From the NCBI GenBank assembly GCA_946408025.1, contig CAMJQJ010000003.1, positions 1 through 58,695 of the forward strand: a stretch of DNA of 58,695 nucleotides, given 5' to 3'. A model generated the notes under the pieces. The model had not been told where the DNA came from and searched no databases. It saw only the letters and a list, made by a program, of their open reading frames with translations. Source of the stretch: an uncultured Faecalitalea sp. Lineage in GTDB: Bacteria > Bacillota_I > Bacilli_A > Erysipelotrichales > Erysipelotrichaceae. Shown here in pieces: positions 395-16,804 of the stretch (position 1 is the stretch's first letter; each line of letters opens with the position of its first letter). A program made the position numbers and the translations under genes.

Positions 395-418
395 AAATAC
401 ACGTTCTGTGTATTTTTT
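395..418 (+). terminator. Hairpin with U-run in the operon leader, possible attenuator
   Basis: An 8-bp stem (AAATACAC / GTGTATTT) with loop GTTCT runs straight into T residues. It lies between the predicted promoter and the ROK start codon, inside the leader RNA. It could terminate transcription conditionally, or could simply end leftover read-through. No competing antiterminator pairing was identified by eye. Confidence 0.5.
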
Positions 419-506
419 ATTTAAAAAAAGTACAGTATTTATATTCCTTTCTTTTTCATACACATTTTTTTTCAAATGTTATCCTATTGCCATGGAGGTA
501 AAAGGA

Positions 507-1403: not shown

Positions 1404-1412
1404 GTGATTTTA

Positions 1413-3380
1413 TTGAAAGTAGAAAAATCGAATTTCTATATTCGAGAAATATTGAGGCATTTGTTGGAAGGAGAAGTACAATCTACAAATGATATAGCAA
1501 AGTGGATCAACTTATCAGAAAAAGCGACACGTAACAAAATTTCAGCAGTAGATTTTTTCTTGAAAGAAGAGGGATTGGGTTCTATTGAAAGAAAACCACG
1601 AATTGGTGTCTGGTTAAATGCAACGAATGAACAAAAAGAAAAAATATCTAATTTAGTTATTTCCAATGAATGTTCTATTGCTACTGATGGCAAAGATAGA
1701 GAAAATGAAATATTAAAAATATTTTTTCGACTTATGCCTAGAGAAAGTATCACCACACAAAAACTGTCGTCAAAATTATATTTATCGGGTCCTACAGTAT
1801 TAAAAACAATTAAGGATTGTCAAAAAAGACTGGATAAATATAATATTCGAATCGTTAATGAAAGGACGCATGGGTTTTATTTATCTTATCAGGAAAATGA
1901 ATTTAGAATGGCGTTGAAAGATTATATTTGTTCTGAGAAAACTTCAGATAAGATTCGTGAAAAAATTCATTATTTCTTTTCCAACATCGATGTTTATTTG
2001 ATTGAAAAATGTATAGTTGAAACAGAGAATGAATGGAATTATAAATTTGCAGATGAATCATTTTATGAAATATTGGTTTATTGTTGTTTGGCATGTCAAC
2101 GTAAAGATTTCAGCATGCCGCTACATATTAATCAAGAAGATGTAGAAATTTTGGAACAGTACAACGAGTATCCTTTTACAGTAGCAATCTTTCAAAAAAT
2201 GCACGACAAAATTCATGTGATGTTTTCAAATGAAGATATTTTATTTTTGGCAACGCAAATAATGTGTTCTAAATTTATGGGCATTGATCAGACTGAACAA
2301 GCATGGAAAGTAATTCATAAATATGATCAAAAACTATTATCTTTTATTGATGAGATGCTTGATACGATTGGGAAAGTTCTTGAGAAAGATTTAAAAGATG
2401 ATATTCGTTTAAAAGAAAGCTTAGTTTTTCATTTGCGCTCTACGATATTTAGGTTACGTTATGGATCTCCACAGAGTAATTCTTTAGTTGGATTTATTAA
2501 ATCTGAATATAAAACTGTATTCAGGGCAACATGGTCTGTTTCAATTTTGTTTGAAAAGTATTATGGAGTATCAATAACTGAGGATGAAATAGGATTTATT
2601 GCCTTATATATTCAATCTGCGATTGAAAGAAGAATGCAAAGATATAAGGCGATCTTAATTGCAGATTTTACACGAGGTCATGCGGAATTGATTTCGGAAA
2701 GAATTTCACGAACGATTCCAGAAATTAAAGAAATAATAATCATAAGTCGTCATGATTTTAAACTCTATGAACATAAAGATGATGTTGATTTGATTATTAC
2801 AAGTCGACCTATGACAGAAAAAGATCGAAGAATCGTAGAAGTTTCAAATCTGTTAAGTGATGATGGTATGATCAAATTAAGAACTTTTATGGATGAACTT
2901 CATTTTTCGCTATTTACACAAGAAAACCCATTTAGCCCAATTTGTTATCCATTATTTGATCCGGAACTAATGTTTTTAAATATGGATTTTACAAATAAGG
3001 AAGATGTTTTGAATTATGCAAGTAAAAAAATGGAAGAAAAAGGATTTGTAACTTCATTATTTGCAAGATCTGTTAAAGAAAGAGAAAATGCTACATCGAC
3101 GGCGATTGGAAATTATGTAGCTTTGCCACATGGGGCTCAGATACATGTTAATCAATCAAAAGTGAGTATTGTAACTCTTAAAAATCCTGTTCGTTGGGAT
3201 AAAGATGAAATGGTAGATGTCATTTTCTTGTTAGCTTTTAAACTATCGACTCATGAAGAAATAAAAAGGGTTCAATCATTCTATCAAGAATTTATTTCGT
3301 TAATAGAAACTAATGAGAAAATTAGTTTGATAAGAAATTCACGATCCGAAGTGGAATTATACAAATATTTAATTAGATGA
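1413..3380 (+). CDS. PRD-containing transcriptional activator with EIIB-like and EIIA domains (MtlR/LicR type)
   Basis: A 655-aa regulator with two N-terminal helix-turn-helix regions (about 1-60 and 85-160), two PTS regulation domains (about 190-400), an EIIB-like domain (about 408-500) and a C-terminal EIIA domain of fructose/mannitol type (about 510-650), whose phospho-His is H573 in ALPHG. TTG 1413 is preferred over GTG 1404 because AGGTGA at 1402-1407 is a well-spaced SD for it. The EIIB-like domain has ILIADFTRG where a phospho-cysteine would be, so Cys is missing. PRD1 has Cys or Tyr where a His is usual, and PRD2 keeps one His (VFHLRS) but has Tyr in ALYIQS. Control probably rests on fewer phosphorylation sites than usual. 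It lies between kinase and transporter genes and likely regulates this operon. Confidence 0.88.
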   Translation: MKVEKSNFYIREILRHLLEGEVQSTNDIAKWINLSEKATRNKISAVDFFLKEEGLGSIERKPRIGVWLNATNEQKEKISNLVISNECSIATDGKDRENEILKIFFRLMPRESITTQKLSSKLYLSGPTVLKTIKDCQKRLDKYNIRIVNERTHGFYLSYQENEFRMALKDYICSEKTSDKIREKIHYFFSNIDVYLIEKCIVETENEWNYKFADESFYEILVYCCLACQRKDFSMPLHINQEDVEILEQYNEYPFTVAIFQKMHDKIHVMFSNEDILFLATQIMCSKFMGIDQTEQAWKVIHKYDQKLLSFIDEMLDTIGKVLEKDLKDDIRLKESLVFHLRSTIFRLRYGSPQSNSLVGFIKSEYKTVFRATWSVSILFEKYYGVSITEDEIGFIALYIQSAIERRMQRYKAILIADFTRGHAELISERISRTIPEIKEIIIISRHDFKLYEHKDDVDLIITSRPMTEKDRRIVEVSNLLSDDGMIKLRTFMDELHFSLFTQENPFSPICYPLFDPELMFLNMDFTNKEDVLNYASKKMEEKGFVTSLFARSVKERENATSTAIGNYVALPHGAQIHVNQSKVSIVTLKNPVRWDKDEMVDVIFLLAFKLSTHEEIKRVQSFYQEFISLIETNEKISLIRNSRSEVELYKYLIR

Positions 3381-3394
3381 GAGGAGCAAAAATT

Positions 3395-3844
3395 ATGCAA
3401 GTATTAGATGTATTAGATGAACGTATTATTGATTTAAATGCACAGGCAAATAACAAAGAAGAGGTTCTTACATTATTATCCAAAAAATTAAAAGATGCAG
3501 GATATATTGATGATGTTGAAAGTTTTAAGAAAGATATATATTTAAGGGAAAGCGAAGGAACTACAGGTATCGGAAATTACATCGCAATACCACATGGAAA
3601 AAGTGATTCTGTCACTCAAGTAGGAATAGCCATTGCAAAATTAGATCATGAAATTGAATGGGAAACATTGGATGGAAAAGGAGTAAAATTGATTTTCTTG
3701 TTTGCGGTAAGCAATAATCATGAGTATGCAAGAAACCACATGTTGTTATTGGCAGATATTGCAAGAAAGCTAGGAAATGATGAAGCTGTAGAGAGAATGT
3801 TGAACGCTACAACAGTAGAAGATTTAAAATCAGTGTTTGCTTAA
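3395..3844 (+). CDS. PTS fructose-family EIIA subunit
   Basis: A 149-aa single-domain EIIA of the fructose/mannitol type, the phosphoryl donor to the EIIB encoded next. The active His is H67 in the motif IAIPHGK. ATG 3395 is chosen because GAGGAG at 3381-3386 precedes it by 8 bases; an earlier in-frame ATG at 3377 overlaps the regulator stop and has no SD of its own. The same fold is repeated as the C-terminal domain of the upstream regulator. A 135-base gap follows, without a convincing terminator, before the EIIB gene, so the operon probably continues. Confidence 0.9.
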   Translation: MQVLDVLDERIIDLNAQANNKEEVLTLLSKKLKDAGYIDDVESFKKDIYLRESEGTTGIGNYIAIPHGKSDSVTQVGIAIAKLDHEIEWETLDGKGVKLIFLFAVSNNHEYARNHMLLLADIARKLGNDEAVERMLNATTVEDLKSVFA

Positions 3845-3979
3845 AAATGACCGCATTTATATGACCTTTTGTTTTTTAAAATAAAAAAAAGTACCTCATT
3901 AAAAAGACCTTAGTAAAAATGTGCCGGATTATTTATTTGGTAAGATTAAGACAGTTAAAGAGAGAAAGGAGAGAAACTT

Positions 3980-4291
3980 ATGAAAATCGTAGCAGTAGCA
4001 GCTTGTACATCAGGGATTGCCCATACGTACATCGCAAAAGAAAAATTAATCCGAGCTAGTGAAGCGCTTGGACATAGTATCCATGTTGAAACACAGGGAA
4101 CAATCGGAACAGAAGATGAACTGACTCCAGAACAGATTGCTGAAGCCGATGTTGTAATTTTAGCTGTTGATATTGCCATTACAGGAACAGAGCGTTTTGA
4201 AGGAAAGAAAACAATCAAAGTTCCTACAAGTTTGGTAGTTAAAGCGCCAAAACAATTACTTCAAAAAATTGAATCAGAACTAAATAAATAA
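3980..4291 (+). CDS. PTS fructose-family EIIB subunit
   Basis: A 103-aa EIIB of the fructose family. The phosphocysteine is C9 in AACTSGIAHT, followed by the usual helix that begins YIAKEKL. It accepts phosphate from EIIA and passes it to the sugar carried by EIIC. A good SD (AAAGGAGAG) precedes the ATG. It is separate from EIIA and EIIC rather than fused, as in many Bacillota hexose or hexitol systems. Confidence 0.93.
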   Translation: MKIVAVAACTSGIAHTYIAKEKLIRASEALGHSIHVETQGTIGTEDELTPEQIAEADVVILAVDIAITGTERFEGKKTIKVPTSLVVKAPKQLLQKIESELNK

Positions 4292-4308
4292 TATTAGGAG
4301 GGAACATT

Positions 4309-5400
4309 ATGAAAGGTTTAGGACAAGAATTAAAAAGACATATGTTAACGGCAATTTCCTATATGCTTCCTTTGGTTGTTGCATCTGGTTTGTTAATTGC
4401 TGTTGGTAACTTAATGGGAGGTCAAGTAATAACTGATCTGTCAGAAGTAACAATACCTAGTGCATTTACATCACTTGGTGTATTAGGTATGGGATTGCTT
4501 CCATCTTTTATCGCAGGTTATATTTCATACTCTATTGCGGATCGTCCAGGTATTGCTCCAGGTTTCTTGATGGGACAGATTGCTAGTTTCTTAGGTGCAG
4601 GATTCTTAGGTGGATTGATTGGTGGTTTTGTTTCAGGTTATATCGCATTAGCAATTCGCAATTATGTTAAGGTTCCAAAATGGGCTGAAGCATTGATGCC
4701 AATGATGATCATTCCAACATTAACGGCTATGATTGGTGGTTTATTGATGTATTTTGTACTAGGAACACCAATTATGTGGATGACAAATGGATTAACAAAC
4801 TTCATTACAGGATTGGATCAATCTTCAAAAGCACTTTATGGATTCATTATTGGTGCTATTGGTTGTATTGACTATGGAGGAGCAATCAGTAAAGTTCCTA
4901 ACTTAATTTGTGATGGTTTGCTACTAGAAGGTATTACAGAACCAGAAGGAATCAAGGTGTTGGCAGCTATGGTTCCACCATTCGGTGTAACATTTGCATT
5001 ATTACTTTCAAAAGTAATGCACAAAAGAATTTTCACAAATACAGAAGTAGAAAATATCAAAGTTGCTTTCCCAATGGGTGTATGTATGATTTCTGAAGGT
5101 GTTATTCCTATTGCAATGAACGATTTGATTCGTACTGTATTCTCAACTTCAATTGGATGTGGAGTTTGTGGAGCAATTAGTTTCTTCTTTGGAAATGGTA
5201 GTCCAGTGCCAAGTGGTGGAGTATTCGTTATTCCAGCAATGTCTCAACCATTAGTTGCTGTTGCAGCTCTACTGATTGGTTCATGTGTAACTGCAGTATT
5301 ATTAGTATTGATCAAAAAGCCTCTAACAGAAGAAGAAGCTGCTGGTGTTGTTGAAGAAGTAGAAGAAGAAGTAGATTTATCAGGAATTTCATTCGACTAG
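4309..5400 (+). CDS. PTS fructose-family EIIC permease
   Basis: A 363-aa polytopic membrane protein with about nine to ten hydrophobic segments (first at about residues 14-36), forming the sugar channel of the fructose-type PTS. The segment MISEGVIPIAMND corresponds to the conserved ITEGAIPFA region of EIIC-Fru. The C-terminal 25 residues are very acidic and cytoplasmic. AGGAGG sits just upstream of the ATG, and the gene follows EIIB by 17 bases. The transported sugar is not deducible: there is no 1-phosphofructokinase nearby, which argues against ordinary fructose use. Confidence 0.92.
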   Translation: MKGLGQELKRHMLTAISYMLPLVVASGLLIAVGNLMGGQVITDLSEVTIPSAFTSLGVLGMGLLPSFIAGYISYSIADRPGIAPGFLMGQIASFLGAGFLGGLIGGFVSGYIALAIRNYVKVPKWAEALMPMMIIPTLTAMIGGLLMYFVLGTPIMWMTNGLTNFITGLDQSSKALYGFIIGAIGCIDYGGAISKVPNLICDGLLLEGITEPEGIKVLAAMVPPFGVTFALLLSKVMHKRIFTNTEVENIKVAFPMGVCMISEGVIPIAMNDLIRTVFSTSIGCGVCGAISFFFGNGSPVPSGGVFVIPAMSQPLVAVAALLIGSCVTAVLLVLIKKPLTEEEAAGVVEEVEEEVDLSGISFD

Positions 5401-5423
5401 TTTTATAAGAGGGATTATCGAAT

Positions 5424-6275
5424 ATGTATGTATCAATGAAAGGAATGCTTGAACGGGCGAATCAAGGCAATTATGCTGTAATGGCAATCAATTGTTTCAA
5501 TATCGAAACGGCTCGTGCAGTGATTAATGCTGCACAGTCGCTTCGAGCTCCTATTATCGTCAATATAGTTCAAGAACACATGGTCAATCATTGTGATAGT
5601 GAGTTAATTGCTCCTATTGTAAAAATGTTGGCTAATAGAGCTAGTGTAGAAGTTGCATTGAATTTTGATCATGGAGTGGATGTAGGTTTATTAAAAAAAG
5701 CTTTACATGATGGATATTCAAGTGTGATGGTTGATGCGAGTCGATACGATTTGGAAGGAAATATTGCGATGACTCGTGAAATTGTCGAATTTGCTAAAGC
5801 TTATGGTGCCAGTGTTGAAGGTGAAATTGGATGCATGGGTGGTACTGAAGGAACTATGACTAGCGATCAGATGAAAACAGATCCTGAGCAGGCTCTTCGT
5901 TTTGCCAAAGAAACAGGCGTAGATTGCTTGGCTGTTTCTTATGGATCAAGTCATGGAAATTATCCAGAAGGTTATGTACCAGAATTTGATTTTGAAAGAT
6001 TAAAAGAAATAAAAAAATTAACGAAAATGCCTTTGGTTTTGCATGGTGGTTCTGGCTCTGGTGATGAGAATATCAGAAAATCAGTTGAAAATGGCATTAA
6101 CAAAATCAATGTTGGTTGTGATTTTATGAATGCAAATACCGCTGCTATCAAAGCGCATCTAGATAAAGATCCTAATATCAATTATTGGGTCATGATGAAT
6201 CAAGTTGAAAAAGAGAGTCAGGAACTTGTAAAACATTATATTCAGTTATCAGGTTCTGTTGGAAAATCGCTATAA
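5424..6275 (+). CDS. Class II ketose-bisphosphate aldolase (GatY/KbaY/Fba-like), copy 1
   Basis: A 283-aa zinc-dependent aldolase. Catalytic Asp and zinc ligand are D82-H83 in NFDHG, with further zinc ligands H177 (SSHGNY) and H207 (LVLHGGSG), and a phosphate-binding NVGCDF near the end. The usual His two residues before the catalytic Asp is Asn here. The family splits ketose phosphates to DHAP and an aldehyde; the neighbouring PTS makes it likely that the substrate is the imported phosphorylated sugar or its bisphosphate. It lies 23 bases after EIIC and 18 bases before a second, divergent aldolase. The preferred substrate (fructose, tagatose or another ketose phosphate) is unresolved. Confidence 0.88.
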   Translation: MYVSMKGMLERANQGNYAVMAINCFNIETARAVINAAQSLRAPIIVNIVQEHMVNHCDSELIAPIVKMLANRASVEVALNFDHGVDVGLLKKALHDGYSSVMVDASRYDLEGNIAMTREIVEFAKAYGASVEGEIGCMGGTEGTMTSDQMKTDPEQALRFAKETGVDCLAVSYGSSHGNYPEGYVPEFDFERLKEIKKLTKMPLVLHGGSGSGDENIRKSVENGINKINVGCDFMNANTAAIKAHLDKDPNINYWVMMNQVEKESQELVKHYIQLSGSVGKSL

Positions 6276-6293
6276 AATAAGGAGGAAATACAT

Positions 6294-7160
6294 ATGTTAA
6301 TGAATATGAAAGATTTATTGAAAGTTGCACAGGAAAATCATTTTGCTGTTCCAGCATTCAATATTGGTAGTGATCAGTTACTTAAAGCTGTAATGAAAAA
6401 AGTAAATGAATTAAAATCACCAGTTATTTTAGAAATGAGTCCAGATGAATTTGAATTTGTTGGTTATGGACAAATTCAGGCAATGATTTATGAAGCTAGC
6501 AAAACAGATGTTCCTGTTGTTATTCATCTAGATCATGGTGATAAATATGAAACAGTTGTTAAAGCTATTCAGGCTGGAATGACTTCTGTTATGATTGATG
6601 CTTCTAAACTTCCTTATGAAGAAAATGTTGCAATTACAAAAAAAGTTGTTGAGACAGCTCATATTGCAAATGTTAGTGTCGAATCTGAATTAGGAACAAT
6701 TGGTACAACTGGAAACTCTATTGAAGGTGGAACTGAAGGTGTAATTTATACAGTTCCTGCCGAAGCTAAACAATTTATTGAAGACACAGGTATTGATACA
6801 TTTGCTGTAGCAATTGGTACAGCTCATGGTATCTATCCAAAAGATATGAAACCTAAATTAAGAATTGATATCCTTAACGAAATTACAGAAGAAGTAAAAG
6901 TTCCATTGGTATTACATGGTGGTTCATCAAATAAAGATGAAGAAATCGCTGCTGCAGTTGAAAATGGTATTTGCAAGATCAATATATCAAGTGATATCAA
7001 GGTTGCTTTCTATAATAAGTGCCGCGAAGTGTTGAACAATAATCTTGACTACAGAGAGCCTCTACAAATTTATCCAGAGTGCATGGAAGAATGTGCTAAA
7101 GTTGTTGAAGAAAAATGTAAATTATTCAACTCTGTTGGAAAAGCAAGTTTATATTATTAA
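6294..7160 (+). CDS. Class II ketose-bisphosphate aldolase (Fba/GatY-like), copy 2
   Basis: A 288-aa class II aldolase with the classic HLDHG motif (D80-H81), zinc ligands H178 (TAHGIY) and H208 (LVLHGGSS), and a NISSD phosphate loop. It shares fold and motif order with the gene just upstream, but the two are clearly diverged rather than recent copies. GGAGG lies just upstream; ATG 6294 or 6300 could both serve. It is the last gene of the operon, followed by a strong terminator. Two paralogues in one operon suggest either different substrates or a hetero-oligomer, which the sequence cannot decide. Confidence 0.88.
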   Translation: MLMNMKDLLKVAQENHFAVPAFNIGSDQLLKAVMKKVNELKSPVILEMSPDEFEFVGYGQIQAMIYEASKTDVPVVIHLDHGDKYETVVKAIQAGMTSVMIDASKLPYEENVAITKKVVETAHIANVSVESELGTIGTTGNSIEGGTEGVIYTVPAEAKQFIEDTGIDTFAVAIGTAHGIYPKDMKPKLRIDILNEITEEVKVPLVLHGGSSNKDEEIAAAVENGICKINISSDIKVAFYNKCREVLNNNLDYREPLQIYPECMEECAKVVEEKCKLFNSVGKASLYY

Positions 7161-7247: not shown

Positions 7248-7285
7248 ATAAACATTACAGGATTCCTGGTAAATGCAATGTTTAT
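7248..7285 (-). terminator. Possible ldh terminator hairpin
   Basis: Arms ATAAACATT and AATGTTTAT enclose a shorter CAGG/CCTG stem, overlapping the ldh stop codon. The following T-run on the minus strand is broken by A residues, so it is weaker than the bidirectional hairpin further on. Confidence 0.4.
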
Positions 7286-8232
7286 AGCAATGGATTGACT
7301 GTATTTATGATGATATCTTCTAAAGTTTGACAGCTATGTAAGAATTTTTGTTTGTCGTTATCGTTTAGATCAAGTTCCAAAACTTCTTCAATACCGTTTT
7401 TACTGATTAAAGCTGGTACTCCATTGTAAATACCTGAATAGCCATATTCTCCATTCTGGTAAGTTGATACAGTTAAAATAACATGTTCATCATTTAAAAT
7501 GGCATGGACAAGTCTATTTAACGATAAACCAATTCCATAATAAGTGGATTTTTTTCTGTTTACAATTTCATATCCTGCTTGTTGTACATCTGTGTATATT
7601 TTATCTAAATCTTTAACATTTAATTGCTTTTTTTCAATCACATCTAATAATTTTTTACTTCCAATATATGCATGGTCCCAAGGAACAAAACTTGTATCAC
7701 CATGTTCACCCATTATATAAGCATGAATATTACTGCTGGAAATATTTAAGTATTCACTTAACATATAGCGAAGTCTTGCAGTATCTAATAACGTTCCACT
7801 GCCTATTACTTTGTTTTTTGGAAGTCCAGATACTTTTTGAGCAACATAGGTCATAATATCAACAGGGTTACATGCAACAACGATGATGCCATTAAAACCG
7901 GATTTCATTATTTCGGTAGTAACACCTTTTACGATTTTTGTGTCTGTAATTGTTAAATCTAAGCGAGTTTCACCAGGTTTTTGAGTAGCACCTGCAGTTA
8001 TTACAACGATATCAGCATCTTTACACTCATCGTAATTTCCTGCCTTGATATTGATTTTGCGTTTTGCATAAGGCATTCCATGTTGTAGGTCCATAGCTTC
8101 TCCGATTGCTTTTTCTTGGTTTATATCAATCAATACAAGATCGTCAATATCTCCAGAAATAAGCATGCTATAGGCAAAACTCATACCTACAAATCCAGTG
8201 CCAACTAATACAACTTTTCTTTTCTCTTTCAT
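7282..8232 (-). CDS. ldh: L-lactate dehydrogenase
   Basis: NAD-dependent reduction of pyruvate to L-lactate in the cytoplasm. From the internal Met, the protein is 316 aa, the usual LDH length; a longer in-frame start at 8322 would run through the palindrome and is rejected because AAGGAA stands just before ATG 8232. The Rossmann motif GTGFVG is at 11-16, D36 favours NAD, Q84 in ATQKPGETR marks LDH rather than malate dehydrogenase (which has Arg), and the catalytic His is H177 in GEHGD. It is transcribed divergently from ridA across a 67-nt palindrome, so the two may share control. Confidence 0.93.
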   Translation of the reverse strand: MKEKRKVVLVGTGFVGMSFAYSMLISGDIDDLVLIDINQEKAIGEAMDLQHGMPYAKRKINIKAGNYDECKDADIVVITAGATQKPGETRLDLTITDTKIVKGVTTEIMKSGFNGIIVVACNPVDIMTYVAQKVSGLPKNKVIGSGTLLDTARLRYMLSEYLNISSSNIHAYIMGEHGDTSFVPWDHAYIGSKKLLDVIEKKQLNVKDLDKIYTDVQQAGYEIVNRKKSTYYGIGLSLNRLVHAILNDEHVILTVSTYQNGEYGYSGIYNGVPALISKNGIEEVLELDLNDNDKQKFLHSCQTLEDIIINTVNPLL

Positions 8233-8265: not shown

Positions 8266-8294
8266 AGTATAAAAGGAGAATAATCTTTTAATAA
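8266..8294 (-). promoter_or_regulatory. Candidate ldh promoter
   Basis: On the minus strand TATACT (8271-8266) is a good -10 box. The hexamer 17 bases upstream (TTATTA) is a poor -35, and it abuts the palindrome, so activation or repression through that element is plausible. Confidence 0.4.
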
Positions 8295-8359
8295 AGGACG
8301 TTTTTTTCAGCTTATTATGCAATTTGTTGTTGCATAATAAAAAGAAAAATATGTCCTTT
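8293..8359. repeat. 67-nt imperfect palindrome between ldh and ridA
   Basis: The inner arms TTATTATGCAA (8312-8322) and TTGCATAATAA (8330-8340) are a perfect 11-bp inverted repeat with a 7-nt loop. Outside them, 8293-8308 pairs with 8344-8359 with one mismatch and one G-T pair (AAAGGAC / GTCCTTT at the ends). Three unpaired positions on each side separate the two stems. Neither strand carries a terminator T-run after it. Its place between divergent promoters suggests an operator or a structured RNA, but it might be a small repeat element. Confidence 0.75.
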
Positions 8360-8413
8360 TCGTGTTTTAAACAAACTTATAAAATGAAAATAAATTTAAT
8401 ACGGAGGATGTAT

Positions 8414-8788
8414 ATGAAAAAAGAAATTAAATCAACAAAAGCGCCAAGCTCAATAGGCCCATATTCATTAGGAATAGAAAGTAATGGGTTCATTTTTTTA
8501 TCGGGTCAGATTCCTGTGAATCCAAAAACAGGAGAAATTCCTATGGGAATCAAAGAACAGACAAAACAAGTTTTGTCAAATATTGATGGAGTATTATTAG
8601 ATTTAGGACTTAATAAAAATAACATAGTAAAAACAACGGTTTTCATGACCAATCTAAAAGAATTTGATGAATTAAATGAAGTATATGGAAATTATTTTGT
8701 ATCACCTTTTCCAGCAAGAAGCTGCATTGAAATTTCTCAATTACCAAAAGGGGTAAAAGTCGAAATTGAATGCATAATTGAGAAATAA
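8414..8788 (+). CDS. ridA: RidA-family enamine/imine deaminase
   Basis: A 124-aa protein of the RidA (YjgF/YER057c/UK114) family, which forms trimers and hydrolyses reactive 2-aminoacrylate and other enamines or imines made by PLP enzymes. The N-terminal APSSIGPYS, the SGQIPVNP strand and PARSCIEI with the catalytic Arg (R102) are all present. ATG 8414 is chosen since GGAGG at 8403-8407 precedes it; longer in-frame starts run back into the palindrome. It stands 81 bases before the second PTS operon, which encodes a C-S beta-lyase that would produce exactly this class of intermediate, and no terminator separates them. Confidence 0.92.
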   Translation: MKKEIKSTKAPSSIGPYSLGIESNGFIFLSGQIPVNPKTGEIPMGIKEQTKQVLSNIDGVLLDLGLNKNNIVKTTVFMTNLKEFDELNEVYGNYFVSPFPARSCIEISQLPKGVKVEIECIIEK

Positions 8789-8869
8789 TTGCATTTTTAT
8801 GTGAAAAAAAAGTTCTGTTAATGTAAGAGGTTACAGTGATAGTATGACTTTGCGAAAGGAGGAACGATC

Positions 8870-10771
8870 ATGAGAATGTATTTGATAATTTCGGATTTAA
8901 TTGAAGCAAACGATTATCTAACGTTGGATTATTTTACTGATAAATATCAAGTCTCCAAAAGAACAATTCAAAATGATCTTTCTTACCTGATACAAATCGG
9001 ATCTTCAAAAGGATATGAGTTAAAACAGTTTAGAGGAAAAGGATATTTGTTAGAAATTCAAGATAAAGAAAAATTTTTAATCTTTTATCAATCTCTTTCC
9101 AAAGATGAAGTATTAAATGTAAAAGAAAGAGTATCAAATATATTAGCTTGGATAGCAATACAAACAAATTATGTAACTTTAGATTCTATTTCTAATCATT
9201 TTGAAATAAGTAAAACACTTTTGAAGAAAGAAATACAAAATGTAGAAAATGAATTAAACGAGTATGGCTTGACATTAGAGAAGAAAAGTCATTATGGAAT
9301 TCGTTTAAAAAAAGATAAAATACCTTACATTAGTTTACTAAGAGATTTATTTATAGAAAATAATTCTGTTTTAGTTAAAGATGTAAAAGATACATTGGGT
9401 GATTTTGAGGTTATATATAAAACATTGATTAATGAATTTGCCAAAGCCAATGTCATGATCAATTATGCAGAATTAAAAGAAGTATATGTTTGTATGCAAA
9501 TACAAGCGTATTGTGCATGTAAACAAAAAAATATAGAAATTGATTACTCAGGGCTATTAGATGATGAAATAGGACGTTTAATAATATCGTTAAATGAATG
9601 GGTGGTAAAAGTATATGATGTTTCCATTTGTAACGAATATTTATTGGAGCTAGATAAAAAAATCCGAAAGAAAGTCAGAATACAAACACCTGAAAAAGAA
9701 AAAAATCGTAATTTGACAGATGATGTTGAGCTATTTCTGGAAGAAGTGGATCAAAATTATGGCACACATTTAAAAGAAGATACTCAATTCAAAGAATTAT
9801 TGATTAAACATGTTTCTTTATTGATAGAGAGGTTTTATCAAAAAATATCATATAAAAATTCACTAACAGATGAAATCAGTATTCGTTATCCTAGGGTCTT
9901 CAATATGGCAATTAGTTTTAGTGAGATGCTGAAAGAGAAATATGGAGTTGATGTATCTCATGGAGAAGCTGCATTTATCGCAACACATTTTGCAGCTCAC
10001 TTCGAAAAAGAAAAGCAATTAAATATTAAGCGATTTAATCGTATCGCGGTTGTTTGTTCTTCTGGGGGAGGATCTGCATTTTTAATAAAAATGCAAATAG
10101 AATCGCTATTTCCTAATGAGAATGTTGAGTCGTTCAGCTTTTTAGAAATGGAAAAAGTTCAGAAATTTGAACCAGATATTATATTTACGATTATGCCTTT
10201 GACCAAAGAGTTTTCAGTACCCGTAATATATATTCATGAATTGTTAGATGACGAAGATTTGAAAAAAATTAAACAATTATTGGAGTACGATCAGGTTAAA
10301 ACGATGTCATTATTAGATTTATCTAGTTCTGTAAATACGTTATTTTCAAAAAAATTTTTTGAAATAGGAGAGGCAAGCTCTTATCGTGAATTGCTTGATT
10401 ATATGGCAAAAAGATTAATGGATGATGGCTATGGAGACGAACATTACTTAAGCAATGTTCAGCTTCGTGAGGAATATATGAGTACGGTTTATATCAATGG
10501 TGTTGCTATTCCTCACCCGATAGAAATGTGTGCTTCAAAAAATGTGATTTCTACTTTTATTGTTAAAAATCAACTTATGGAATTAAATAAACCGGTACGA
10601 ATTGTATTTATGATTTCTTTAACAAAAGAAGATTATCAAAAACATCAAGATATTACAAAGTTACTTTATATGCTGATGAAAGATGAACAACGTTTACAAA
10701 GAGTATTACATTCGAATTCTTTTGAAGAAATGCTAATTGTTTTAAAAGAAATGGAGGGAATCATTCGATGA
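8870..10771 (+). CDS. PRD-containing transcriptional regulator with EIIB-like and EIIA domains (BglG/LicR type)
   Basis: A 633-aa regulator: HTH with VSKRTIQNDL at about residues 28-40, a second HTH at about 85-140, two PTS regulation domains (about 180-390), an EIIB-like domain that keeps a cysteine (VVCSSGGGS), and a C-terminal EIIA-like domain with AIPHPIE as its His site. PRD1 lacks the usual first His (VCMQIQAYC), whereas PRD2 keeps both (KHVSLL and ATHFAAH). AAGGAGG lies upstream of ATG. It overlaps the next gene by 4 bases (ATGA), so it is the first gene of the peptidase-PTS operon and most likely its regulator. Confidence 0.9.
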   Translation: MRMYLIISDLIEANDYLTLDYFTDKYQVSKRTIQNDLSYLIQIGSSKGYELKQFRGKGYLLEIQDKEKFLIFYQSLSKDEVLNVKERVSNILAWIAIQTNYVTLDSISNHFEISKTLLKKEIQNVENELNEYGLTLEKKSHYGIRLKKDKIPYISLLRDLFIENNSVLVKDVKDTLGDFEVIYKTLINEFAKANVMINYAELKEVYVCMQIQAYCACKQKNIEIDYSGLLDDEIGRLIISLNEWVVKVYDVSICNEYLLELDKKIRKKVRIQTPEKEKNRNLTDDVELFLEEVDQNYGTHLKEDTQFKELLIKHVSLLIERFYQKISYKNSLTDEISIRYPRVFNMAISFSEMLKEKYGVDVSHGEAAFIATHFAAHFEKEKQLNIKRFNRIAVVCSSGGGSAFLIKMQIESLFPNENVESFSFLEMEKVQKFEPDIIFTIMPLTKEFSVPVIYIHELLDDEDLKKIKQLLEYDQVKTMSLLDLSSSVNTLFSKKFFEIGEASSYRELLDYMAKRLMDDGYGDEHYLSNVQLREEYMSTVYINGVAIPHPIEMCASKNVISTFIVKNQLMELNKPVRIVFMISLTKEDYQKHQDITKLLYMLMKDEQRLQRVLHSNSFEEMLIVLKEMEGIIR

Positions 10772-11832
10772 ATAATTCATTGTTGATGCGTTTAAGCAAT
10801 GCTGATGCTGTTGCTTCTAAAGAAAATGAAGTAAGGGATATTTTATGGGAAGAATGTCATGAGAAATGTGATGAGATTGATTTTGATCATTTAGGAAGCA
10901 TTATTTTTAATAAAAAAACTAACCAAAAAGATCCATTAAAAATTATGTTTACAGGACATATGGATGAAGTAGGATTTTTGGTAAGACATATTTCAGATAT
11001 AGGTTTCTTATATTTAATAAAACTTGGTGGCGTAACTGATAAAAGTTTAGAAATGCAAAAAGTTCGCGTAACAACAAAGTCCGGAAGAAAAGTGAAAGGA
11101 TTGATGAATGTTACAAAGAGTGACAATGGTTCAATAAAAGAAATTTATGTTGACCTTGGTGTGAGTACAAAAGAAGAAGTTGAAAGTTTAGGCATTGAAA
11201 TTGGAAATATGGTTACTTTTGATACCGAATCTTGTCAGCTTGATAAAACGTCTATTATTGCAGGAAAAGCAATGGATGATAGGACAGGGTGTTATGTTAT
11301 CGCAGAAAGCTTAAAAACTTTGTCTAATGAAGAATGTGAAGCTGAATTATTCTTTGCGGGGACAAGCAGCGAAGAAGTTGGTGTTAGAGGAGGCAAAACA
11401 GCTACTTATCATGTGAACCCAGATATTGTTTTCGCAATAGATGTGGCCAATAATCCTGAATTGGTAAGAAATTATACAAATCATAGAGATATAGGAAAAG
11501 GAGTAATGATTGTACATTACGATAAGACGCTGGCACCTAATGAGAAATTATTGGCTTTTGTAAAACAAGTTGCAAAAGAAAATAACATTCCTTTCCAAAT
11601 GGACATGTTTAGTGGTGGAGGAACGGATGCCGGAAATGCTCATTTGACAGGTGATGGAAAATTGGCACTTGTAATAGGAATACCTTTGAGATATTGCCAT
11701 GGATGCATGTCTTATGTTCATCAAGACGATTTAGATAATGCCGTTAAATTGGTTGTTGCATTATCCAAATCTCTAAATAAAGAAAAATACAAAGAATTTG
11801 TCACATTTATTGGAGGTAAGAAAAATGACTGA
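10768..11832 (+). CDS. M42-family metallo-aminopeptidase (FrvX-like)
   Basis: A 354-aa cytoplasmic peptidase with two metal ions. Ligand motifs in order are GHMDEVG (H64, D66), AMDDRTGC, SSEEVGVRGG with the general base and ligand Glu pair, AIDVAN, and the C-terminal CHGCMSYVH. The family includes glutamyl aminopeptidases and members once called endoglucanases; the E. coli frv cluster also pairs such a gene (frvX) with a PTS. It overlaps the regulator (ATGA) and the EIIA gene, so it is translated with them. Its presence in a sugar transporter operon is unusual and suggests that the imported compound carries amino acids. Confidence 0.9.
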   Translation: MNNSLLMRLSNADAVASKENEVRDILWEECHEKCDEIDFDHLGSIIFNKKTNQKDPLKIMFTGHMDEVGFLVRHISDIGFLYLIKLGGVTDKSLEMQKVRVTTKSGRKVKGLMNVTKSDNGSIKEIYVDLGVSTKEEVESLGIEIGNMVTFDTESCQLDKTSIIAGKAMDDRTGCYVIAESLKTLSNEECEAELFFAGTSSEEVGVRGGKTATYHVNPDIVFAIDVANNPELVRNYTNHRDIGKGVMIVHYDKTLAPNEKLLAFVKQVAKENNIPFQMDMFSGGGTDAGNAHLTGDGKLALVIGIPLRYCHGCMSYVHQDDLDNAVKLVVALSKSLNKEKYKEFVTFIGGKKND

Positions 11833-12142
11833 ATTAGAACAACAAATCGTAAGTATTATTTCTTCTGCTGGAGAAAGTAAAGCAAAAGCTTTTGAAGGTT
11901 TAAAGAAAGTCAAAGAAGGAAAATACGATGAAGCAAGAGCATTATTGGCTGAATCAAGAAAAGCAGATTTAGAAGCACATAAGATTCAAACTCAATTGAT
12001 TACAGCTGAAATGTCCGGAGAAAATAAACCAGAAATTGGGCTTTTAATGGTTCATGCACAAGACCATTATATGACTTCTCAATTAGCACGCGATTTGATT
12101 GAGGAGCTAATAGAAATTTTTGAAGCAAAGGAGGAAAAGTAA
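11825..12142 (+). CDS. PTS lactose/cellobiose-family EIIA subunit
   Basis: A 105-aa helical EIIA of the Lac family. The phospho-His is H77 in the motif MVHAQDHYM. ATG 11825 is preferred over an earlier in-frame ATG at 11798 because GGAGG at 11812-11816 precedes it, and because the resulting length matches the family. It overlaps the end of the M42 peptidase gene by 8 bases and is followed at once by EIIB. Confidence 0.93.
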   Translation: MTELEQQIVSIISSAGESKAKAFEGLKKVKEGKYDEARALLAESRKADLEAHKIQTQLITAEMSGENKPEIGLLMVHAQDHYMTSQLARDLIEELIEIFEAKEEK

Positions 12143-12143
12143 A

Positions 12144-12476
12144 ATGAAAATTGTATTGTGCTGTGCAGGAGGTTTCTCTACAACAATGTTAATGGACAGT
12201 ATGAAAAAAACTGTCAAGGAATCTGCTAAATTGAATGAAGATGATTTTAAATTTGTGGCAGTTCCTGTAGATATCCTTCAAAGTGAAATTGAGGATTGTG
12301 ATGTATTGGTGGTAGGTCCTCAGATTGCTCATAGAATGGATTATATTCATCCAATGATCGATCCTTACAAAATCCCATATGTAATTGTGGACAAAGATAC
12401 ATATGGAAAAATGGATGGAGCGACTGTAATGAAAATGGCATTAATTGCTCGTAAAAAAGCTGATATGCAAAAATAA
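12144..12476 (+). CDS. PTS lactose/cellobiose-family EIIB subunit
   Basis: A 110-aa EIIB. The phosphocysteine loop is CAGGFST (C7), matching the CSAGMST pattern of cellobiose EIIB; another Cys directly precedes it. The later VVGPQIAHR is the usual family strand. ATG 12144 is selected because AAAGGAGG stands just before it; an upstream in-frame ATG would overlap EIIA and add a basic tail not seen in the family. Confidence 0.92.
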   Translation: MKIVLCCAGGFSTTMLMDSMKKTVKESAKLNEDDFKFVAVPVDILQSEIEDCDVLVVGPQIAHRMDYIHPMIDPYKIPYVIVDKDTYGKMDGATVMKMALIARKKADMQK

Positions 12477-12506
12477 AATGAAATAGAGGAAATAGGAGGA
12501 AGAGTA

Positions 12507-13832
12507 ATGTTTGATAAATTTGAGGCGTTTATGTCAAAATATTTGACACCGCTTGCAAATAAAATGGATAAACAAGTTCATTTAAGTGCAATTAAAAAAT
12601 CAATGGTTGCAATGACACCTTTGTTGATTATAGGTAGTTTTTGTTTGATTCCAGAAGCTATTCCAAATATGATTGGAGAAAATAATGCGGTTTCACAGTG
12701 GATCTTGGCAAATTTGGATATAATTTATATTCCATATAATGTAGGTATGGCTTTGATGTCATTGTATGTTTCTGCGATAATTGCATACCATTTATCTAAT
12801 TCATATAAATTAGATTATCCAGGTGCGATGTCAATGGCAGTATTAGCTTTCTTAATGATGGCTGTTGATTATACTGAAGATGGAGGTATTTCCACAACTT
12901 ATTTTGGACCAAAAGGATTATTTGCCGCAATGGCAGCTTCTGTAGTAGCGGTGGAATTGTTCCGTTGGTGCAAGAAAAAGAAATTTACAATTAAAATGCC
13001 AGAATCAGTACCAGATTTTGTTTCTCGTTCTTTTGAGATGATTCCAATTTCAGTAATTATCGTTGGTTTCTTCTTGATTATCCGTGTGGTTTGTGTAAAC
13101 TTCTTGAATACATTGCCACCAATGATTTTCACAAATATTTTGGCTCCTTTGGTAGGTTCAATGGATAATCCATTAGCATTTACTTTCTTACAGACGATTT
13201 CTTGTTTGTTATTCTTCTTTGGTATTCACCCATCAGTGCTATCACCAATTACAAGTCCAATTTCTACTCAGTTCTTGGCAGAAAACATTGCAGCTTACCA
13301 AGCTCATGAAGCTTTACCACATTTCTATACTGGTGGATCAATTTCAGCGTTTGCAAACTTCACAGGAACTGGTGTTACATTTGGGTTGGTATTCTGGTGC
13401 TTATTATCAAAATCGAAAGCTCAAAAACAAATTGGACGTGTAGCTTTAATTCCATCATTGTTTGGTATCAATGAACCTATTTTGTTTGGAGCTCCGATCG
13501 TATTGAATCCAATCTTCTTTATTCCATATGTATTATGTGGAGGAATCATCGGAACAATTCCTCATTGGATGATGTATTTTGGTATTTTAGATAAACCATT
13601 CTTTACTCCACCTTATGTAGGTGTTTTCTTAGAAGGTTTCTTAACTAATTTAGATTATATGTCAATTGTTGCGAACGCAATTCAGTTGGTTCTTTCTATA
13701 TTGTTATATTATCCATTCTTTAAAATCTATGAAAAACGTGAATTAGAACAGGAAAAAGAATTTGAAGAAAAGAAATCTGTAATTAGCAAAGAGGATGAAG
13801 CTTTGTTAGACGACTTAGATTTAGACTTTTAA
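12507..13832 (+). CDS. PTS lactose/cellobiose-family EIIC permease
   Basis: A 441-aa integral membrane EIIC with about ten hydrophobic segments. The hallmark GINEPILFGAPIVLNP loop, which contains the sugar-binding Glu, is present, as is the N-terminal QVHLSAIKKSMVAMTPLLI start region. It carries the substrate across the membrane while EIIB phosphorylates it. No phospho-beta-glucosidase or other glycosidase is in the operon, which is atypical for this PTS family. An intercistronic hairpin follows before the M24 peptidase. Confidence 0.93.
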   Translation: MFDKFEAFMSKYLTPLANKMDKQVHLSAIKKSMVAMTPLLIIGSFCLIPEAIPNMIGENNAVSQWILANLDIIYIPYNVGMALMSLYVSAIIAYHLSNSYKLDYPGAMSMAVLAFLMMAVDYTEDGGISTTYFGPKGLFAAMAASVVAVELFRWCKKKKFTIKMPESVPDFVSRSFEMIPISVIIVGFFLIIRVVCVNFLNTLPPMIFTNILAPLVGSMDNPLAFTFLQTISCLLFFFGIHPSVLSPITSPISTQFLAENIAAYQAHEALPHFYTGGSISAFANFTGTGVTFGLVFWCLLSKSKAQKQIGRVALIPSLFGINEPILFGAPIVLNPIFFIPYVLCGGIIGTIPHWMMYFGILDKPFFTPPYVGVFLEGFLTNLDYMSIVANAIQLVLSILLYYPFFKIYEKRELEQEKEFEEKKSVISKEDEALLDDLDLDF

Positions 13833-13836
13833 GAGT

Positions 13837-13856
13837 AGGCAAGCTTTGGCTTGCCT
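13837..13856 (+). other. Intercistronic stem-loop after EIIC
   Basis: An 8-bp GC-containing stem (AGGCAAGC / GCTTGCCT) with a TTTG loop lies between EIIC and the M24 gene. No U-run follows, so it is more likely an mRNA-stabilising or processing hairpin than a full terminator. Confidence 0.6.
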
Positions 13857-13885
13857 CTTGCTGCTTATAAAAAGGAGTATATTAT

Positions 13886-14959
13886 ATGGCAAAGTATTTG
13901 AATAAAGTGCGTGAAATGATGAATGAAAAAAAAGTTGATGCAGTCATCATAAAGAGCAAAACCATGAAAAAATATCTAAATACATTAACTGGAAGTGGAT
14001 GTCAACTGATAATCTTAAAAGATACAGGTTACATTGTGTTAGATGGTCGTTATTTAGAAGAAGCCAAACAAAAAGAACATGATTTAAAAATTCATCTGAT
14101 ACAAGATGACATGGTTACAGATACATTAAATGTTTTAAAACAAGAGGGTTGTAGAAATGTAGCACTAGAAAATGCAACAACTTCTGTGAATGTATATAAA
14201 AAATATGTATCTTCAGACTTTGAAATCACATTATGGGAAGAAGAGTTTGGATTATTAAGGATTTGTAAAGAAAAAGAAGAAATTGAAAAGATACAGTTAG
14301 CTGTCGATATGGCAGATGATATTTTTGAAAAGGTAAAGCATCAGATAAAAATTGGAATGACAGAATATGAAATTAGCGCTTTGTTGCAATATTATGCTAT
14401 TTCAATGGGAGCACAACAAATGTCATTTGACACTATTGTTACATCTGGTACAAGAACTGCTTTGCCACATGGTAGACCAACAGATCGTAAACTCAAAGCA
14501 CATGATCCAATCATGATTGATTTTGGTGTGCAGGTAAATAATTATCAATCAGACATGACACGAATGCTGTTTATTGGCAGTCCAAGCGAAAAAATGGTTG
14601 AAATATATAATACGGTATATGAAGCACAGACGAAAGCTTTAGCAGGAATTCGTGCTGGAATTACAGGGATGGATGCGGATAATATTGCTAGAGATATCAT
14701 TACAAAGCATGGATATGGTGAATATTTTGGACATGGATTAGGGCATGGTATTGGTATTGGTGATGGTTGTGAATATCCTTTTTTAAATCAAAATTCATCA
14801 ACAATCTTAACTGAAAATATGATTATGTCATGTGAGCCGGGAGTATATGTCCCTGGAGTAGGTGGAGTACGAATAGAGGACGATGTATTAATAAAAAATG
14901 GTGTTGGTGTAGCGCTAAATCATACATCAAAAGAATTGTGTATTCTAAAGGAGCAATAA
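13886..14959 (+). CDS. M24-family metallopeptidase (Xaa-Pro peptidase type)
   Basis: A 357-aa pita-bread-fold peptidase with a creatinase-like N-terminal domain (about 1-125) and the catalytic domain after it. The five metal ligands are visible in order: Asp in IDFGVQ, Asp in SDMTR, His in FGHGLGHGIG, Glu in SCEPGVY and Glu in VRIEDDV. The family removes an N-terminal residue before proline or cleaves Xaa-Pro dipeptides. The next gene starts one base after its stop. It is the second metallopeptidase of this PTS operon. Confidence 0.92.
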   Translation: MAKYLNKVREMMNEKKVDAVIIKSKTMKKYLNTLTGSGCQLIILKDTGYIVLDGRYLEEAKQKEHDLKIHLIQDDMVTDTLNVLKQEGCRNVALENATTSVNVYKKYVSSDFEITLWEEEFGLLRICKEKEEIEKIQLAVDMADDIFEKVKHQIKIGMTEYEISALLQYYAISMGAQQMSFDTIVTSGTRTALPHGRPTDRKLKAHDPIMIDFGVQVNNYQSDMTRMLFIGSPSEKMVEIYNTVYEAQTKALAGIRAGITGMDADNIARDIITKHGYGEYFGHGLGHGIGIGDGCEYPFLNQNSSTILTENMIMSCEPGVYVPGVGGVRIEDDVLIKNGVGVALNHTSKELCILKEQ

Positions 14960-14960
14960 T

Positions 14961-16157
14961 ATGAAATATAATTTTGATGAAATAAATAATCGCTTAGGGA
15001 CTTATTGTACACAGTGGGATTATATTGAAGATCGTTTTGGGGAAAAAGATCTTTTACCATTCTCAATTTCTGATACTGATTTTAAAATTCCACATCCTAT
15101 TACAAAGAAAATATTAGAAGTATCAAAAAGGGAACTTTATGGATATTCCAGATGGAATCATTCGGATTTCAAAGGAAGTATTTGTAGCTTTTATGAAAGA
15201 AGGCATAACTGCAAATTAAATCAAGATTGGATTGTTTATAGTCCATCAGTAATGTATTCTGTTTCTCTTCTGATTCGTATTCTTTCAAAACCTGGAGATG
15301 AAGTTGTTACATTTAATCCAATGTATGATTCCTTTTTTACTGTAATCGAGGATAATAAAAGGAAATTAATTTCACATAATCTATTAAAAGTAAATGGAAC
15401 GTTTGAGATTGATTTTACAATATTAGAAAATCAATTATCTTCTGCAAAATTATTATTGTTATGTGCTCCACATAACCCTACAGGTCGAATATGGACTAAA
15501 GAAGAAATGGATAAGATCATTGATTTGTGTAAGAAATATGAAGTGAAAATTATTTCAGATGAAATTCATATGGATCTTCATTTAAAAAATAGAAAACATA
15601 TTCCTTTACTATCATATAAAGATAGTTATGATGAAATATATACAGCTTCTTCTTGCAGCAAAACTTTAAATGTACCAGGCTTAGGTGGTTCATATGTGAT
15701 CATTCCAAATGAAAAAGTTAAAGAAGATTTTTTACATAATACAAGAAAAGTAGACTTTTTAAACTCACCTAGTATTTTTGGTATGTATGCGACTATGGTT
15801 GGATATACTGAGTGTGATGATTATATAGATCAACTTAACGAATATATCAAAGAGAACATGAGATTTGTAAAAGAGTATTTAGATAAATATTTACCTGATT
15901 TTAAATTTGAAATTCCGGATGGAACATATTTAGCTTGGATTGATGCTCGTGATGTTCCTTTTTCAACTGAAGAAATACAAGATGCCCTTGTTCATGTAGG
16001 TAAAGTAGCAATCATGAAAGGGGAAACTTACGGTGAAAATGGAACCAAATATTTAAGATTAAATTGTGGTTGTCCAAAGTCAAAATTAGAAGAAGGTTTA
16101 TCTCGAATGAAAAAAGCGATGGACTGGCTTTATTCTAATCAGAAAAAAGAGGGATAA
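14961..16157 (+). CDS. MalY/PatB-type PLP-dependent C-S beta-lyase
   Basis: A 398-aa fold-type I PLP enzyme. Motifs are APHNPTGR, SDEIHMDL (the MalY/PatB form of the PLP Asp motif) and SCSKTLNVPG with the Schiff-base lysine K234, plus YLRLNCGCP near the end with the carboxylate-binding Arg. The family cleaves cystathionine, cysteine or cysteine S-conjugates to a thiol, ammonia and pyruvate through 2-aminoacrylate. GGAG lies in the end of the M24 gene. Within the operon it would act after the peptidases; RidA upstream would handle its enamine product. Aminotransferase activity is a less likely alternative. Confidence 0.88.
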   Translation: MKYNFDEINNRLGTYCTQWDYIEDRFGEKDLLPFSISDTDFKIPHPITKKILEVSKRELYGYSRWNHSDFKGSICSFYERRHNCKLNQDWIVYSPSVMYSVSLLIRILSKPGDEVVTFNPMYDSFFTVIEDNKRKLISHNLLKVNGTFEIDFTILENQLSSAKLLLLCAPHNPTGRIWTKEEMDKIIDLCKKYEVKIISDEIHMDLHLKNRKHIPLLSYKDSYDEIYTASSCSKTLNVPGLGGSYVIIPNEKVKEDFLHNTRKVDFLNSPSIFGMYATMVGYTECDDYIDQLNEYIKENMRFVKEYLDKYLPDFKFEIPDGTYLAWIDARDVPFSTEEIQDALVHVGKVAIMKGETYGENGTKYLRLNCGCPKSKLEEGLSRMKKAMDWLYSNQKKEG

Positions 16158-16159
16158 GA

Positions 16160-16759
16160 ATGAAAAAAAATTCAATTATTTCTAAAATCACTAGTTGGAT
16201 TGATAATACACCTAACGAATTGCCTTTTAATAAAAGATTTGGCGCATATGTGATTGATTGGGCGCTAGGAGGTATTTTTTTAGGGCTTCCTGCTGTATTC
16301 ACATATGGAGCTATCACAGGCAAGTCTGATATGTTCAGTGATTTATATGTGTTTCCGTCACTGGGATACGGAACATTTTGGTCTTATTTTGCGGGTATAT
16401 TGTCTATTTTATTTGCTCTTTTCTACTATGTGTATATTCCATGGAAAATTTATCCAGGTCAAACTATCGGGAAAAAATGGCTAAAATTAAAAATTGTCAA
16501 TTTAGATGGCTCTAATGTATCTTTAAAAGGATTGCTCATGCGATATGTTGTTGGTATGTTCATTTTTGAGAGTGGATCTATAGTTGTTTGTGGATATATT
16601 CGTCAAATGATAACTCTTATGACAGGCGTTTATGTCGAAACAATATGGCAGTGGATCGGAACGATTTTATTCATTCTATCTTCAATGTTAGCTGCTGGAA
16701 CAAAAAGTCATAGAGCTTTTCATGATTACATTGGTAAAACAAAAGTTGTTGTAGAATAA
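16160..16759 (+). CDS. RDD-family membrane protein
   Basis: A 199-aa membrane protein with the RDD pattern: RFGAYVIDW at the first membrane helix, the conserved GQTIGKKWLKLKIV loop, two further hydrophobic helices, and an HRAFHDYIGKT end. About four membrane segments are visible. RDD proteins are poorly defined; some have been linked to ion exchange. It starts 2 bases after the C-S lyase and is the last gene before a strong terminator, so it belongs to the PTS-peptidase operon, where it might export a product. Confidence 0.85.
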   Translation: MKKNSIISKITSWIDNTPNELPFNKRFGAYVIDWALGGIFLGLPAVFTYGAITGKSDMFSDLYVFPSLGYGTFWSYFAGILSILFALFYYVYIPWKIYPGQTIGKKWLKLKIVNLDGSNVSLKGLLMRYVVGMFIFESGSIVVCGYIRQMITLMTGVYVETIWQWIGTILFILSSMLAAGTKSHRAFHDYIGKTKVVVE

Positions 16760-16778: not shown

Positions 16779-16804
16779 AAGCAAACTCAAAAGTTTGCTT
16801 TTTT
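16779..16804 (+). terminator. Terminator of the PTS-peptidase operon
   Basis: A 9-bp perfect stem (AAGCAAACT / AGTTTGCTT) with a CAAA loop is followed by a T-run. Confidence 0.9.

Follow-up and report, generated by a model that had tools for sequence, protein, structure and literature searches.

A 58,695-nucleotide stretch of DNA (the window; contig CAMJQJ010000003.1, labeled C3) from a metagenome-assembled genome (MAG) of an uncultured Faecalitalea sp. (1.53 Mb, approximately 79% complete) carries an operon in which a Lac-family phosphotransferase system (PTS; EIIA, EIIB, and EIIC) is encoded together with M42 and M24 family peptidases and a predicted C-S beta-lyase of the MalY/PatB type that depends on pyridoxal phosphate (PLP). 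The unit, ordered regulator-M42-EIIABC-M24-lyase, was found to be kept in 36 loci from Erysipelotrichales, Clostridia, Lactobacillales, and Coriobacteriia, spanning two phyla. Comparative genomics indicates that the PTS and the lyase are coupled. We put at close to even, though not above it, the chance that the operon serves as a dedicated route for taking up and cleaving a sugar compound carrying an amino acid joined through its beta-carbon, the likeliest being a cysteine S-conjugate, either free or in a short peptide.

Conservation of the operon

The M42 gene was present at 36 of 36 loci, the lyase gene at all 35 that could be judged, and the M24 gene at 34 of 35, Granulicatella being without it. 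A gene for an RDD-family membrane protein accompanied approximately two-thirds of the loci; it was missing from several Clostridium operons and from all Peptostreptococcaceae operons seen, and in Lactobacillaceae it precedes the M24 gene. Among 295 genomes of the order, 12 EIIC orthologs (including that of the window) share 74 to 100% identity and one shares 55%, with the remainder at 40% or less. The gene order PRD regulator-M42-EIIA-EIIB-EIIC-M24-lyase-(RDD) was common to all EIIC orthologs fetched, and no peptidase or lyase genes adjoined the paralogous Lac EIICs examined (L051 to L057; 34 to 40% identical). Of 392 genomes searched within the phylum, 6 had the EIIC ortholog, and the operon-type lyase was found in those 6 and no others. 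Thirty-one loci came from scanning named genomes; they belong to Erysipelotrichales, Clostridium, Peptacetobacter, Terrisporobacter, Lactobacillaceae, Granulicatella, and Bavariicoccus and, in the other phylum, to Olsenella, Olegusella, and Collinsella. Compared with Olsenella, the EIIC is among the best-kept proteins (73% identity), with the M24 peptidase at 44% and the regulator at 30%.

An earlier note on this DNA, made from the sequence alone, had named the joint occurrence of EIIABC, M42, M24, and the lyase in other genera as a sign in favor of its reading, and this proved to be the case across genera, families, and two phyla. It had also named the contrary case, namely, PTS operons of related strains devoid of the peptidase and lyase genes. 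The opposite was seen, as the matching 8-kb cluster of L. sakei is present or absent as a whole, being missing as a block from strain LK-145 (PMC5845896).

Two atypical loci were encountered. In the most divergent operon (G208; L050, 9132-10493), a stop codon interrupts the EIIC gene, reflecting either an assembly error or decay, and the remainder looks intact. In a Lactobacillaceae MAG (L075/L107), the operon has shrunk to M42-EIIC-M24-lyase, with EIIA, EIIB, and the regulator not adjoining.

Repeated recruitment of lyases beside PTS transporters

Maximum-likelihood analysis placed the lyases from Lac-type operons in three separate positions: a main group that includes the lyase of the window (group 1), a Lactobacillaceae/Bavariicoccus group nearer to the MalX-linked lyases (group 2), and a group from Collinsella and G208 lying outside the MalY clade (group 3). 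A single origin was rejected by the approximately unbiased test (p-AU of 1e-13 for groups 1 and 2 and 1e-34 for all three), the groups having been defined after inspection of the first tree. Because the operon EIICs form one clade, lyases have entered this slot on more than one occasion with no change in the kind of transporter. The use of three or more lyase lineages next to a constant transporter indicates that the lyase is functionally required and is not hitchhiking.

Searches led by the lyase, and thus blind to the PTS, revealed that 23 of 25 MalY-type lyases in Lactobacillaceae adjoin a PTS EIIC, which was Lac-type in 7 cases, Frv-type in 14, and MalX-type in 2. The Frv-type neighbors (FrvA-FrvB) share 58 to 68% identity with E. 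coli FrvB, and the MalX-type neighbors share 55% with their E. coli counterpart. No recurrent glycosidase was identified in any of these clusters (Lac-, FrvB-, or MalX-type). In the Lactobacillaceae Frv clusters, MalY is the sole enzyme encoded between transporter and regulator, a position taken in E. coli frv by the M42 peptidase FrvX. The remaining two lyases (L129 and L130) have no adjoining PTS.

The lyase gene at L129 (8884-11680) is followed directly by brxA and brxB of a BREX system and appears to be a remnant beside a defense island. Outside Lactobacillaceae, frv-type clusters of Peptacetobacter and Granulicatella (L101, 6790-12871; L102, 7466-13602) encode FrvA, FrvB, MalY, and FrvR together with an M20-family peptidase. 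C. difficile also has a malX-malY gene pair (PMC4026244).

Family and active site of the lyase

The lyase of the window (14961..16157, plus strand) scored above the TIGR04350 cutoff (354 bits against 340), in agreement with the MalY/PatB-type identity proposed earlier. Its closest solved structure is that of E. coli MalY, with which it shares 39% identity and a clade with support of 100/100. K234, the PLP lysine, and Y122 correspond to K233 and Y121 of E. coli MalY, and across the 78 lyases compared, the Collinsella and G208 replacements included, there is no variation in the catalytic Lys, Tyr, Asn, Asp, and Arg. The lyase alignment places an Arg64-Trp65 pair directly after the active-site Tyr62, and Asp123 adjoins Tyr122. 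These three residues (R64, W65, and D123), among others, were found in 52 of 52 PTS-linked MalYs of the main clade and are absent or rare in ordinary PatB. One testable guess is that Arg64 might recognize the phosphate of the PTS product.

Activity data are available from L. sakei LT-13, whose MalY is encoded in the matching cluster and was taken as the ortholog of the window lyase from gene order and family, not from sequence. This enzyme is a C-S beta-lyase acting on L-Cys, cystine, and cystathionine as well as an amino acid racemase, and it has no lyase activity on L-Ser (PMC5845896). The possibility raised earlier, that the gene encodes an aminotransferase devoid of C-S lyase activity, thus fails for the L. 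sakei homolog because its beta-lyase activity has been measured.

A transporter with an altered sugar-binding site

The EIIC of the window (12507..13832, plus strand; TIGR00410, 285 bits against a cutoff of 236) belongs to the Lac/cellobiose family. The operon EIICs formed one clade with support of 100/100 in a tree whose control set came mostly from the same order and left out more distant Lac EIICs. The sugar-holding and sugar-phosphorylating residues of bcChbC (His250, Asn333, and Glu334) are kept in the 30 operon EIICs compared. Trp245, present in 22 of 22 other Lac EIICs, is Phe in 30 of 30 operon EIICs; in addition, a one-residue deletion follows the catalytic His, and FTPP-YVGVFLEG, with a deletion, stands in place of the W382 loop. 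The window EIIC fell below the cellobiose, chitobiose, and lactose equivalog cutoffs (TIGR00359, 285/434; NF007634, 145/760; TIGR00394, 208/614). Since the pocket changes are group specific and invariant, the proteins form one clade, and these cutoffs were failed, the operon EIICs probably share one dedicated and unusual substrate across all carriers.

Proposed pathway and alternative explanations

In the pathway that we favor, EIIABC would import the conjugate and phosphorylate its sugar part, and neighboring residues would be trimmed by the M42 enzyme, a general aminopeptidase, and the Xaa-Pro-type M24 enzyme. The MalY-type lyase would then split the beta-substituted alanine without any need of a glycosidase, yielding a sugar-phosphate or thiol part and 2-aminoacrylate, and would so occupy the position held by the phospho-glycosidase in chb/cel operons. 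Where RidA is present, it could convert 2-aminoacrylate to pyruvate and ammonia, and the PRD regulator would turn the operon on according to the phosphorylation state of the PTS. That the imported molecule is the precursor of the lyase substrate through a covalent link to the sugar, along with the chemistry and the order of steps, is our inference. More broadly, there might be an unrecognized nutrient route in which PTSs of at least three families import sugar-cysteine or sugar-peptide conjugates whose phosphorylated products are split by a MalY-type C-S lyase and not by a glycosidase, this operon being the fullest form of the route and malXY and frv being reduced forms; we regard this generalization as plausible yet distinctly tentative.

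Several observations count against the conjugate pathway. No member of the operon has a known substrate, and we cannot confidently point to a natural sugar-cysteine conjugate that is abundant in all habitats of the carriers. Free cysteine or cystathionine, its measured substrates, could be what the lyase uses, with no covalent link to a sugar. An O-glycosyl-serine, from which beta-elimination would free the sugar without a glycosidase, was considered as a substrate and lowered because L. sakei MalY is inactive on free L-Ser, leaving it without enzymatic support. If an S-glycoside were cleaved, a 1-thio-sugar phosphate would remain, and no gene of the operon accounts for its subsequent use. A Lac-family EIIC may also be unable to accommodate molecules as large as peptides. 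Furthermore, the Lactobacillaceae Frv and MalX clusters are without the M42/M24 pair, and the Collinsella and G208 replacement lyases lack R64-W65. For bacillithiol or mycothiol conjugates, also considered as substrates, no supporting gene was found.

An alternative that is unlikely on balance but has real substance is that the genes are coupled only through a shared regulator: the PTS would import some sugar, whether ordinary or unusual, while peptides and cysteine arriving with it in the same niche would be degraded by the peptidases and lyase, giving nitrogen, H2S, and pyruvate. The activity of MalY homologs on free L-Cys, cystine, and cystathionine (PMC5845896) fits this, as do the general nature of M42 and M24 peptidases and the nearby RidA and lactate dehydrogenase (LDH) genes, which suit plain cysteine catabolism. 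However, no peptide or cystine transporter was seen to recur at a fixed place beside the operon, and at least two replacements of the lyase have occurred with no change of transporter. The signature residues are moreover common to the lyases of three PTS types, and the EIIC pocket is remodeled and invariant, unlike that of an ordinary cellobiose/chitobiose carrier. Chance neighborhood, or hitchhiking in an operon with no functional link, could be entertained given that each member on its own comes from a widespread gene family (five clear M42 genes and two above-cutoff lyases are present in the MAG), but it is scarcely credible and was rejected because of the conservation across two phyla, the identical sets of 6 genomes, out of 392, that hold the EIIC ortholog and the operon-type lyase, and the repeated recruitment of lyases.

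Two further explanations are each improbable. Cysteine-sugar thiazolidines, adducts of a reducing sugar with cysteine (including N-terminal cysteine), might be taken up by their polyol chain, after which the ring would open by itself to sugar-phosphate and cysteine, the M24 peptidase would handle the proline-like thiazolidine residue, and MalY would destroy the cysteine. This would explain why a glycosidase is missing, why one peptidase is of the Xaa-Pro type, and why MalY was active on L-Cys, and an open chain could conceivably fit the Frv-type EIIC, which belongs to the fructose/mannitol-like PTSs. Nevertheless, ring sugars are the usual ligands of Lac- and Glc-type EIICs, and Granulicatella lacks M24. 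To a similarly low degree of likelihood, MalY may be mainly regulatory, either binding the PRD regulator or removing an internal inducer, with the peptidases as accessories. E. coli MalY is a negative effector of MalT (PMC5845896 and annotation), and in Frv-type clusters the lyase gene adjoins that of the PTS regulator. Yet the catalytic residues are invariant in 78 lyases, and the unrelated Collinsella and G208 replacements are unlikely to have kept one protein-protein contact.

Relationship to known systems

The closest described counterpart is the nine-gene cluster of L. sakei LT-13 (LACBS_00568 to LACBS_00576), which holds the same set of genes for PRD regulator, aminopeptidase, Lac-type IIA, IIB, and IIC, RDD protein, a second aminopeptidase, and MalY (PMC5845896). 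It differs from that of the window in that RDD precedes M24, no RidA is named, and the lyase is expected to be of the Lactobacillaceae lineage. The transporter and pathway were not studied in that work, and conservation elsewhere was not noted (PMC5845896). A pathway of conjugate uptake and lyase cleavage was not found described in the literature searched, where only this cluster and an expression table including C. difficile malXY were encountered.

Each gene pairing has a precedent in E. coli. In malI-malXY, a PTS enzyme II gene adjoins that of a MalY C-S lyase of the same clade as the window lyase; however, MalX is a Glc-family EIICB, MalI is a LacI-type repressor, and there are no peptidases, in contrast to the Lac EIIC and PRD regulator of the window. 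The fryA-ypdE-ypdF-fryC-fryB operon likewise combines a PTS with an M42 (YpdE type) and M24 (YpdF) pair but has a Fru-type enzyme II, the multiphosphoryl protein FryA, and no lyase; the M24 peptidase of the window is below the YpdF equivalog cutoff (NF007310, 241/393) and is of the same family only. The frvABXR operon shares PTS, M42, and regulator, and unlike the window has a Fru-type enzyme II with neither M24 nor lyase. The Lac-family chb/cel operons (ChbC and bcChbC, 3QNQ) match in EIIC fold and phosphorylation residues and include a 6-phospho-glycosidase (chbF), whereas no glycosidase was recognized in the operon of the window or in the scanned neighbors, as had been claimed for the operon; the window EIIC also differs from ChbC and bcChbC in lacking the conserved Trp245 and W382 loop. 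The earlier note, which cited frv, did not bring in the regulator, the fry-ypdEF and malXY precedents, or the link of MalY with Frv- and MalX-type PTSs. New here are the full combination as a phylum-crossing unit, the evidence for a transporter constantly accompanied by a lyase, the frv clusters in which MalY substitutes for M42, and recurrent RidA.

To our knowledge, the compounds transported and cleaved by E. coli MalXY, Frv, and Fry/YpdEF were never settled. A C-S lyase tracks three unrelated PTS carriers, is replaced by one of another lineage when lost, and has active-site surroundings unlike those of ordinary PatB; a set of orphan PTSs thereby comes down to a single question open to testing, namely, which compounds of sugar and cysteine are consumed by bacteria of the gut and of food. 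The comparison offers a test for the old E. coli puzzles of malXY, frv, and fry and could bear on the release of thiols and H2S by gut and fermentation bacteria.

RidA and lactate dehydrogenase neighbors

The facultative member RidA, a predicted enamine/imine deaminase (8414..8788, plus strand; TIGR00004, 157 bits against a cutoff of 106; PARS arginine present), ranked first among the genes immediately adjacent to the operon in an unbiased clustering of 403 flanking open reading frames (ORFs), being adjacent at five loci and always on the same strand. It lies upstream in the window and in Peptacetobacter, and in three Lactobacillaceae it comes right after the lyase gene. These five operons span two lyase lineages, and the arginine of the PAR motif is present in all five RidA copies. 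By our own estimate, at least three independent RidA adjacencies in 72 flanking positions would arise by chance in approximately 1 in 2,000 trials, assuming approximately 1,500 genes per genome, of which three, as in the MAG, are of the Rid family. In four clostridial clusters that have no PTS (L133, 7207-9939; L136, 4022-6773; L138, 7587-10352; L134, 8433-10036), RidA adjoins PatB or is one gene away, and the intervening gene, where tested, encodes a PLP enzyme of Cys/Met metabolism. These clusters are an independent link of RidA with PatB-type lyases.

Both RidA and LDH had been tied to the operon in the earlier note, and of these the case for RidA held up while that for LDH was weak. The L-LDH gene of the window (7282..8232, minus strand; NCBIfam L-LDH, 393 bits against a cutoff of 304) is divergent, as described, and sits just outside the start of the region outlined in that note. 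L-LDH adjoins the operon or RidA in three Erysipelotrichaceae loci (the window, L059, and L050), and a D-lactate-dehydrogenase-like gene is at most two genes away in four others (L078, 3327-4415; L146; L045, 13092-14069; L088, 5262-6239). This recurrence of L- and D-LDH-like neighbors, noticed after the fact, is suggestive, and LDH was rejected as a core member since it is outside the conserved unit.

Gene content of the window locus

ORFs and profile matches define a plus-strand cluster from RidA to RDD (8414-16759) that is followed by a terminator, with L-LDH divergent. The start codons of RidA, EIIA, EIIB, and LDH were chosen by eye from the sequence and are downstream of the longest-ORF starts. 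The PTS-controlled transcription regulator (8870..10771; HTH, Mga, PRD, EIIB-like, and EIIA-2 domains by Pfam) is upstream of M42 in nearly all loci. It is followed by the YpdE-type M42 aminopeptidase (10768..11832; NF007421, 462 bits against a cutoff of 412; 41% identity to E. coli YpdE), EIIA (11825..12142; PF02255), and EIIB (12144..12476; PF02302), in which the active-site Cys lies in the motif VLCCAGG. Between EIIC and the lyase is the M24 Xaa-Pro peptidase (13886..14959; PF00557; PepQ/YpdF-like, 36% identity to YpdF); the metal ligands of both peptidases are invariant. The optional RDD-family membrane protein (16160..16759; PF06271) ends the series, and a hairpin resembling an intrinsic terminator (16779..16800, plus strand) closes the operon. 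From the regulator to RDD, intergenic distances range from overlaps to 53 bases, and a single transcript is therefore likely. A terminator scan gave no match between RidA and the regulator, in line with the previous description. Profile matches likewise upheld the ORFs and families previously given for EIIABC, M42, M24, lyase, RDD, RidA, and LDH, a gene list that was correct for the genes it named and omitted the PRD regulator.

Elsewhere in the same genome are a tandem pair of M42 genes (L003/L001, C19 17439-19394) and more M42 genes on C25 and C9. Finally, the window contains a Fru-type PTS cluster at 408-7160 (plus strand) that encodes a ROK kinase, a PRD-type regulator, EIIA (PF00359), EIIB, and EIIC, along with a tandem pair of distinct class II fructose-bisphosphate-type aldolases.

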